A stretch of DNA of 64,000 nt. Origin: Desulfovulcanus ferrireducens. GTDB taxonomy: Bacteria > Desulfobacterota > Desulfovibrionia > Desulfovibrionales > Desulfonatronovibrionaceae. Below, piece by piece: positions 18,443 to 63,807 of the stretch. The notes below the pieces were generated by a model, which ran no database searches, was not told the origin of the DNA, and was given only the letters and a program-made list of their open reading frames with translations. Position numbers and translations under genes: made by a program. Location of the stretch: contig NZ_JAGUQP010000001.1 in NCBI RefSeq assembly GCF_018704065.1, positions 62,001-126,000 of the forward strand, given 5' to 3'. Within the stretch, counting starts at the first letter, position 1, and every line of letters starts with the position of its first letter.

Positions 18443-18518
18443 TTTATCCTCCCAAGTGCGTCTGCAAAAACACAAGTTTTTACAGGCAGTTTTGAGTTTT
18501 GGGTTATTTAAACCGGAT

Positions 18519-19523
18519 TTAGGCTGCTATTCTTTTCAGAAGTAGTTTAAAAATCATTTCAGGGCTAATATTACGCATACATCTATAGTCATTTTTGCAT
18601 CTGTCCTGGCCATGTAAAGAACAGGGGCTACAAGGGTTCTGCAGATGAACAACCATGTCTTTTTCTCCTGAAGGGTAAAAGCCCCATTCCTTGCTTGTAG
18701 GGCCAAACAAAGCCAGGACAGGGGTGTCTACTGCCGTACCCAGGTGCATGGGGCCGGAGTCGTTAGTGATTAAATGTTGGGACCTGGCAAGGATGGCGAT
18801 GGTTTGTCTTAAACTTGTTTTATTGGTCAGGTCCTGGGGATGGTCAGGGATAAGTGGTCTTTTATTTTGTCCCAGAACAAGCCAGGACAGGCTATGCCTA
18901 TCCATCATTTCAATGAGTTTTAGCCAGAATTCTTTTGGCCAGGATTTAGCCGGGTGTGTGGCATAGGGATGGAGACAGATAATAGGAGCTTGTAAACCTT
19001 TTCCCGCCACAAATTCCTGGGCCCAGAGATTTTCCTCCTTTCTCAGATAGACTCTGGGACGAAGGTCGGAAATATTTGGTGCGTCGTCGCACAAAGCCAG
19101 GGCATAGCGTTGGGGGACATTTAATTCCAGCCTTTTTTTGAGCAGGCTGCTTCTGGTTAATAGATAAGCCCGCCTGGTTAAACTGAATTTTGGATAGGAT
19201 TTAACAGGTCCGGGCCAGATAGGTTTTAAAATTTTGCTTCTTAAATTTTGATGTAAATCTAAGAGACCAAAATGCGGACAATCTTTTTTTAATTCATTAA
19301 TCCGTTTGAGCCAAGCCAATAAATTTAAATCTTTGTTGGTTACCGAGATGGTTTTTTGAACATAGGGGTTGTTATCAAGCACAGGAGCAAAGCTTTTTTT
19401 GGTCAGAAAATAAAAGTTTAAATTATATTTTTGGCCTAGATAGGCAAGAACTCCTGTAGTTAGGACCACATCTCCCAAGGCGCTAAGTCGTATTACAAGC
19501 CAGTTTTGATTTCTTAAATTCAT
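18519..19523 (-). CDS. glycosyltransferase family 9 (heptosyltransferase-like)
   Basis: 334 residues with the GT9 layout: N-terminal WLVIRLSALGDVVLTTGVLA, a central IICLHPYATHPAKSWPKEFW donor-binding segment and the C-terminal TNDSGPMHLGTAVDTPVLALFGPT motif. Family members add heptose to the LPS inner core on the cytoplasmic face of the inner membrane. A C-terminal Cys group (CSPCSLHGQDRCKNDYRC) is common in deltaproteobacterial members. It sits with GmhB and a GT4 gene on the same strand, supporting LPS core synthesis. Confidence 0.87.
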   Translation of the reverse strand: MNLRNQNWLVIRLSALGDVVLTTGVLAYLGQKYNLNFYFLTKKSFAPVLDNNPYVQKTISVTNKDLNLLAWLKRINELKKDCPHFGLLDLHQNLRSKILKPIWPGPVKSYPKFSLTRRAYLLTRSSLLKKRLELNVPQRYALALCDDAPNISDLRPRVYLRKEENLWAQEFVAGKGLQAPIICLHPYATHPAKSWPKEFWLKLIEMMDRHSLSWLVLGQNKRPLIPDHPQDLTNKTSLRQTIAILARSQHLITNDSGPMHLGTAVDTPVLALFGPTSKEWGFYPSGEKDMVVHLQNPCSPCSLHGQDRCKNDYRCMRNISPEMIFKLLLKRIAA

Positions 19524-28679: not shown

Positions 28680-28702
28680 TTTTAGATTTTGGCAGGTTAC
28701 CT

Positions 28703-28833
28703 GATGCAACTGCAATAATTAAAATTTTACAGTTTTGACAAACATCTTCATCTTGTAACCTGTTCAAATGATTCAACATTCATCATTCAAAATTCAACAT
28801 TGCCTGCAAAAAGCCCCTTTTTGCAGGCGCATC
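28703..28833. repeat. family B miniature element, copy 1 (131 bp, inverted)
   Basis: The ends are GATGCAACTGC and GCAGGCGCATC, inverted repeats with two mismatches, flanked by exact 6-bp direct repeats TTACCT (28697-28702, 28834-28839). Near one end, GCCTGCAAAAAG and its complement form a subterminal hairpin. The AT-rich middle holds TTCAACATT units. It is the reverse complement of copies at 36239 and 63532. Confidence 0.9.
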
Positions 28834-29202
28834 TTACCTGTTTGTGAAAGAATTAAGATAACAAGAACAGGATAGAGGACTGAGGACGTTGAAAATACTT
28901 TTATGGCAGAAAATTCAAAGATGTTGAGTTTTTTTTGATGAAGAGCCTGTTTTTTTGAGGGATACTGGGGCTCAAGGAAAGAATGCTTGGAGGATAAGAA
29001 ATCAAAAAATTTTATAGTCTTGATCTTGTGTCATATCTAAAGCCGTGCTGACAAAATTAAAACTCTAAATAATAGTTCCTCAACCCAGACAGTTTGTTTG
29101 ACAGGTATTATTGCTTGATGATAGCTACGCAGCACTCAGTAACCGAAGGTGAATAGAGGGCTTGATGCTCTAAAAATATCATAAAAATCTTAGGAGGTTA
29201 AG
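28834..29202. other. intergenic stretch upstream of the liv operon
   Basis: About 370 bases without a gene. A TTGACA at about 29098 is not followed by a convincing -10 box. It should hold the liv promoter. AGGAGG for livK lies at its right end. No RNA gene or repeat is recognised beyond the family B target duplication. Confidence 0.4.
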
Positions 29203-36037: not shown

Positions 36038-36238
36038 GGTTTATTTATCTCGTTGGGCGGCGAATTGGACAAGATAAAAGATATTAAATTTGTTTATCGT
36101 TTTTATAGACTATAGATGTTTGAGCATTGTATTATATTGATGGTTCTTTTTTTTAAACTTTAAAAATCAATTTATTGCAGTTACAATAAGTCTTACAAAT
36201 TTTATAAACTTTTATTAAAAGAGTATGTAATTATATAA

Positions 36239-36366
36239 GATGCGCCTGCAAAAAGGGACTTTTTGCAGGCAATGTTGAATTTTGAATTATGAATGTTGAA
36301 TTATTTAAATAGGTTACAGGATGTTTTTTGTCAAAATTGTAAATTTTTAATTTTTGCAGTGGCATC
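36239..36366. repeat. family B miniature element, copy 2 (128 bp)
   Basis: It starts GATGCGCCTGC and ends GCAGTGGCATC, flanked by exact 6-bp repeats ATATAA (36233-36238, 36367-36372). The subterminal hairpin GCCTGCAAAAAG/CTTTTTGCAGGC is a perfect 12 bp. It lies 30 bases before the guaA ATG, so it must sit in the guaA leader or promoter. Confidence 0.9.
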
Positions 36367-36396
36367 ATATAATATTAATTACAAGGAAAGGTAATT

Positions 36397-63385: not shown

Positions 63386-63531
63386 AATTATAGATAGTTA
63401 TGGTAAGTCTCGCAAAATATTTAGCCCATTTCTCCCGATGCTCTGTTTTTTCGCAAGCTTCCCTAAGATGGGTTACCCAAGCCGTTTGTAATGCATTTCA
63501 GAAACCAAGACTTTCAATCAGCGGTTAAAAT

Positions 63532-63658
63532 GATGCGCCTGCAAAAAGGGACTTTTTGCAGGCAATGTTGAATTTTGAATTATGAATGTTGAATTATTTA
63601 AATGGGTTATATGATATTTTTGCCAAAATTGTAAATTTTTAATGTTGGCAGTTGCATC
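63532..63658. repeat. family B element, copy 3, inserted in family A (127 bp)
   Basis: It starts GATGCGCCTGC and ends GCAGTTGCATC, with an exact 7-bp repeat TTAAAAT on both sides (63525-63531, 63659-63665). It is nearly identical to the copy at 36239 over its first 70 bases. The empty site is visible in other family A copies as CTAAAATGGGG. Confidence 0.92.
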
Positions 63659-63807
63659 TTAAAATTGGGTTTGGCCACAGACTCTGTAGTGAAGATGTTT
63701 GGGTAAAGCTATAAGCTTTAGTTTGGGGAAAGTATCTAACAATAACAAAAATATAGTAATCTAAAATTTTAATTTTAAAATTTTTCTCAAAATTTAATTT
63801 TCATGTA

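Follow-up and report, generated by a model that had tools for sequence, protein, structure and literature searches.

A MITE family with a one-sided hairpin in Desulfovulcanus ferrireducens, probably moved by an IS1182-like transposase

Results

Three copies of a short dispersed element, one of them between guaB and guaA

The window, i.e. the whole stretch of 64,000 nucleotides of D. ferrireducens that was analysed, contains three copies of a MITE and the decayed end of a related element. The following features were assigned (window coordinates).

36239..36366, + strand: MITE copy of 128 bp between guaB and guaA (read-out, genome search, duplication, congener without the copy)
36233..36238, no strand: target duplication ATATAA, left of the 36239 copy
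36367..36372, no strand: target duplication ATATAA, right of the 36239 copy
36239..36254, + strand: left terminal inverted repeat GATGCGCCTGCAAAAA, matching the IS ends described below
36351..36366, - strand: right terminal inverted repeat GATGCCACTGCAAAAA (minus-strand reading)
36244..36270, + strand: perfect 12-bp hairpin with loop GGA; outer arm inside the terminal repeat, inner arm its inverted copy
28703..28833, - strand: MITE copy of 131 bp, flanked by TTACCT duplications (28697-28702, 28834-28839)
63532..63658, + strand: MITE copy of 127 bp within another dispersed repeat, flanked on both sides by the 7-bp duplication TTAAAAT (63525-63531, 63659-63665)
18455..18520, + strand: relic of a related element, consisting of its decayed left end (AGTGCGTCTGCAAAAACACAAGTTTTTACAGGCAG...); a right end was not observed

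The spacer between guaB and guaA comprises 359 bp including the MITE, compared with 21 bp without MITE in the congener G001. The guaA start codon follows 30 bp past the end of the element, the distance already reported in the first-pass annotation. As the MITE splits the guaB-guaA pair, this copy likely sits in a transcribed leader, as predicted there, and it lies within mRNA if both genes are co-transcribed. Scanning of the spacer for promoters yielded four sigma-70-like sites, with 2.7 expected by chance. On the minus strand there is a single terminator-like site, and the T-rich tail of this site is supplied by the flank. Between guaB and the MITE, the spacer additionally harbors an AT-rich segment of 201 bp (36038-36238), which is missing from the 21-bp spacer of the congener and had no match in the other sequences compared.

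Genome-wide search and target duplications

The genome-wide search for copies that the first-pass annotation had called for was run on the window's own draft assembly (2,585,834 bases, 2.59 Mb; 60 contigs) and returned 22 full-length or near-full-length copies, plus fragments. The copies are 117-131 bp long, well within the limit of <~500 bp applied to MITEs, and free of genes including a transposase. With the hairpin end oriented left, exact 6-bp duplications were found at 13 of the 22 copies, an exact 7-bp duplication at one and one-mismatch duplications at six, while exact duplications of 3, 4, 5, 8, 9 or 10 bp were absent from all of them. When flanks were swapped between different copies as a control, 2/462 combinations gave an exact and 19/462 a one-mismatch duplication. 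The two copies without a good duplication are truncated (L019) or carry an internal deletion, with two mismatches in the flanks (L022). The dispersed copies possess AT-rich duplications of fixed length. Reconstructed target sites were free of any frame >80 codons in 17/22 cases and were spanned by a frame >200 codons in two.

The copy at 63532 also revealed its empty site. This copy resides in a host repeat (window ~63450-63531 and 63666-63690), which recurs at many places in the genome (L161-L180). In 19 of 20 inspected host-repeat copies the TTAAAAT-type site is single and the sequence continues through CAGCGGTTAAAATGGGGTTTGGCCAC or a near variant; they thus represent the site prior to insertion and indicate that no base was lost. 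The host repeat (...AAGACTTTCAATCAGCGGTTAAAATGGGGTTTGGCCACAGACTC) is itself far more numerous than the MITE, with at least 40 strong matches and 226 first-look candidates, and it truncates some MITE-related elements.

The three copies in the window are genuine transposon insertions. Their GATGC/GCATC borders and all three flanking duplications had been described correctly in the first-pass annotation, and its reading of a transposed, non-autonomous element is strongly supported: an array of copies lacking duplications or sharing flanks, which it had named as evidence to the contrary, was looked for in the genome and did not emerge.

Terminal repeats and related elements

The MITE ends form 16-bp inverted repeats with ~2 mismatches (GATGCGCCTGCAAAAA / GATGCAACTGCAAAAA), following the scheme GATGC(GC/AA/CA)CTGCAAAAA. 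The copies indeed have common ends, but these exceed the 11 bp initially proposed. The end pattern occurred 123 times in the own genome when up to two mismatches were allowed, compared with 17 occurrences of the reversed control. Further families in this genome combine the same ends and a one-sided hairpin with different interiors, for example:

C1:142959-143081; C4:2561-2676; C6:29664-29772; C7:30176: same-end families with other interiors

The exact 17-base end was present in 18 of 297 genomes of the order, and the control gave no matches. It is numerous only in the own bacterial family (own genus, g2, g3) and, outside it, in G054 from family f2; G018, likewise of family f2, carries a related element family. 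Other genera of the own family thereby also have elements that pair these ends with a hairpin on one side. Among elements of the relatives, 10 of 36 candidate pairs of ends, a set that includes some mispaired ends, were flanked by an exact 6-bp duplication, compared with 3/1260 for mispaired flanks.

Two further observations concern related elements. Elements in G011, G013, G002 and G015 (e.g. L112, L140, L080) carry another tandem short repeat beside the hairpin, e.g. ATCTGACATCTG or GGATGACAGATGAC, at the place of the TTGAATT units seen here; the layout is alike and the sequences are unrelated. Moreover, there are solo palindromes consisting of two terminal repeats, perfect or near-perfect and 36-45 bp long. 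One of them (L197) is bordered by the exact 6-bp duplication TGTCTT; most have none.

G000:C19:47762-47798; G000:C6:30276-30320; G001 (L199, L201, L203, L205-L208); G014 (L197): solo palindromes

A candidate autonomous partner in related genera

In G012, one MITE-type end runs into a reading frame that is broken off at the contig end. The same DNA is complete in G005:

G005:C2:783181-785080: complete IS of 1900 bp with ends GATGCGACTGCAAAAAGTC and GATGCGTCTGCAAAAAGTC, encoding a 567-aa transposase

The two ends of this IS are alike at 18/19 positions, and ends of the autonomous IS match the left end of the MITE at 18-20/21. The transposase was detected by the NCBIfam IS1182 model NF033551 with an E-value of 6e-51 and 174 bits, which stays below the curated cut-off of 270 bits; for this reason the partner is named IS1182-like and not filed as a family member. 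Pfam cut-offs were exceeded for DUF772 (PF05598), DDE_Tnp_1_6 (PF13751) and DDE_Tnp_1 (PF01609), and the combination of DUF772 with DDE_Tnp_1_6 is the architecture expected of the IS1182 family. Ends in common with the MITE were found at the IS of G005 and at fragments in G012, G014 and G015. Homologues or remnants whose ends contain the CTGCAAAAA core were detected in G001, G010, G014, G015, G019, G033, G036 and G040, one IS end in G010 being a weaker match to this core. The IS copy in G036 is flanked by the exact 7-bp duplication ATGACCT, and a clear duplication is absent at the other three of the four complete IS copies (G005, G001, G010).

No IS1182-like transposase of this lineage was found in the own assembly. 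A class-wide profile search with the transposase added no genomes to those already known to carry it, and scanning genome contigs with the transposase alignment gave three loci only, the relatives being named uncultured Desulfohalobiaceae and Desulfonauticus. A 22-aa fragment had no plasmid match. MITE ends and IS are both concentrated in one bacterial family; the likeness between them is confined to the ends, the MITE interiors not being derived from the IS. The search for an IS with common ends, which had been suggested initially, was therefore successful in related genera and failed in this genome, and the former statement that no named family matches can be narrowed to an IS1182-like MITE that still appears to be unnamed. 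Judged by sequence, the autonomous partner of the MITE is likely the 1.9-kb IS1182-like IS of a related genus.

Structure and probable origin of the one-sided hairpin

The hairpin arms GCCTGCAAAAAG / CTTTTTGCAGGC are present at one end of the MITE only. The perfect 12-bp hairpin proposed previously was borne out by DNA folding (-13.2 kcal/mol, z -5.4), and the opposite end forms no comparable structure. The inner arm corresponds to the terminal repeat in inverted orientation minus its outer 5 bp. The right ends of the IS in G005, G014 and G015 form an imperfect hairpin (-4.7 to -5.8 kcal/mol, DNA fold), which by itself is not significant against shuffles, and DNA folding detected no hairpin at the left end of the G005 IS. 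Given an imperfect hairpin at the IS right ends, none at the G005 left end and a perfect one in the MITE, the MITE probably owes its asymmetry to the IS right end, with sharpening at a later stage.

The arms co-vary across subfamilies (CCTGC/GCAGG, ACTGC/GCAGT, TCTGC/GCAGA, CATGC/GCATG), apart from a few exceptions. The loop reads GGGA in some copies and the reverse complement TCCC in others, and both states exist within each subfamily. At least five changes of loop orientation were counted on the MITE tree, most inner forks of which are poorly supported; since both states occur on either side of the split supported at 100/99, more than one inversion event must have taken place. Loop inversion and matched arms would both be produced if a near-palindrome underwent template switching or cruciform-mediated correction. 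As both features are expected from such correction at the DNA level, perfection of the hairpin need not mean selection. The data suggest that the palindrome is maintained or re-made at the DNA level, through template switching, through a cruciform or as a second, inverted transposase site, and no function as RNA has to be invoked to account for it.

Divergence of the copies

The MITE copies share a mean identity of 88%, the best pair reaching 97.7% and the three window copies 87-94%. They fall into two subfamilies, separated by the 100/99 split, with ~92% identity within and 85% between them. The impression that the copies are very alike was thus not upheld. The claim of recent activity derived from it turned out weak in view of the mean identity, the mismatched duplications at 6/22 copies and the missing transposase gene. 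The copy identities would fit long-lasting movement better than a fresh burst, and with 88% mean identity and no IS1182-like transposase in the assembly, current activity is unproven.

Discussion

The element is very probably a MITE of ~127-131 bp that was mobilized in trans by a DDE transposase of the IS1182-like type. As the own assembly lacks such a gene, mobilization in trans is deduced from the common ends, the duplication length and the distribution. This transposase would bind the 16-19-bp ends through their conserved CTGCAAAAA(GTC) core and would join the GA...TC tips to a staggered cut of 6 bp, sometimes 7 bp, in AT-rich, mostly intergenic DNA. It would be supplied by this IS lineage, presumably lost since from the genome or unassembled, and the one-sided hairpin would probably descend from the IS right end with its imperfect version. 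Exact or one-mismatch duplications at 20/22 copies, the empty site and the congener without insertion count for this model, as do the 10 exact 6-bp duplications in relatives, the IS ends matching at 18-20/21 and the 7-bp duplication of the G036 IS. Counting against it are the lack of the transposase in the own assembly, the interiors not derived from the IS, the three of four IS without clear duplication and the sub-cut-off score.

It appears improbable that another transposase mobilizes the MITEs, for instance one of the IS1634, ISAs1 or IS701 types, which the assembly does encode while lacking an IS1182-like one. However, GATGC..CTGCAAAAA ends are not found beside these genes, apart from unrelated MITEs nearby, whereas IS1182-like genes of related genomes bear exactly the MITE-type ends. 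The 608-aa transposase of IS1634-type near C6:24048 was rejected as partner because no MITE-type end lies beside its gene. As a separate observation, an IS1634-type IS with a 608-aa frame apparently splits an ISAs1-type transposase gene at G000:C6:25400-28600 (L093:2900-6051). An origin of the copies in larger duplicated segments is practically excluded: nothing in its favor was found, the flanks differ, each copy has its own duplication and there is an empty site.

Alternatively, the hairpin could have been selected by the host as an RNA or terminator element and have spread for its regulatory use, transposition being a by-product. Stability of the hairpin in DNA folding, location of the copies mostly outside long frames and the one terminator-like match at the guaA site would agree with this idea, which we nevertheless regard as very improbable, because neither strand of the MITE contains a U-tract, the terminator-like tail is derived from the flank, copies differ in loop orientation and Rfam returned no match for the MITE. 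An intrinsic terminator within the MITE was dropped for want of an internal U-tract. Regarding mobilization by the IS1182-like transposase, it is conceivable, albeit rather doubtful, that the hairpin itself has a function in transposition, the enzyme requiring one of the two ends to be a palindromic double repeat; its group is already connected with stem-loops through IS1272. Such a requirement would account for inner arms that track the terminal repeat despite differing interiors, and for the bare double-repeat palindromes of 36-37 bp, at least one of which has an exact 6-bp duplication.

The partner IS resembles the IS1182 family (IS1182, IS1272, ISPse1) in its length of 1.9 kb, a single frame, terminal repeats of ~19 bp and the DDE_Tnp_1_6 and DUF772 domains. 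It differs in the duplications, which measure 6-7 bp here as compared to 4 bp in ISPse1 (PMC3281130) and none in IS1272, which reportedly targets and replaces stem-loops (PMC5678879). The MITE does not follow such stem-loop replacement, as it has duplications and the empty TTAAAAT site is kept without loss. With bacterial MITEs in general it shares shortness, AT-richness, lack of genes, terminal repeats, duplications, mostly intergenic location and size variants (PMC10969869). In contrast to these, and to the Chunjie MITE of Geobacter uraniireducens (178-235 bp; PMC10969869), which was compared by description, it has a perfect hairpin end made from an inverted terminal repeat, with an inverting loop. 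REP/BIME elements, defined as palindromes that lack target duplications and have a RAYT partner, are likewise dispersed, short and mostly intergenic, and bare palindromes of 36-37 bp with the sequence seen here exist in the same bacterial family; however, the full elements have two terminal repeats, duplications and likely a DDE transposase partner whose IS shares their ends, and the assignment to REP/BIME was rejected. Titles and abstracts returned by literature searches that combined IS1182 and MITEs contained no matching description.

Taken together, the MITE family is real and apparently unnamed, of a kind of mobile element already known. A likely IS1182-like partner and a 6-bp duplication are now assigned to a MITE group, apparently undescribed, that is found in several Desulfohalobiaceae genera and in a neighboring family. 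At guaA, the MITE sits between two genes that lie tightly packed in the congener. If the hairpin is needed for movement, the group would provide a compact natural test of palindrome use by IS1182-type transposases.
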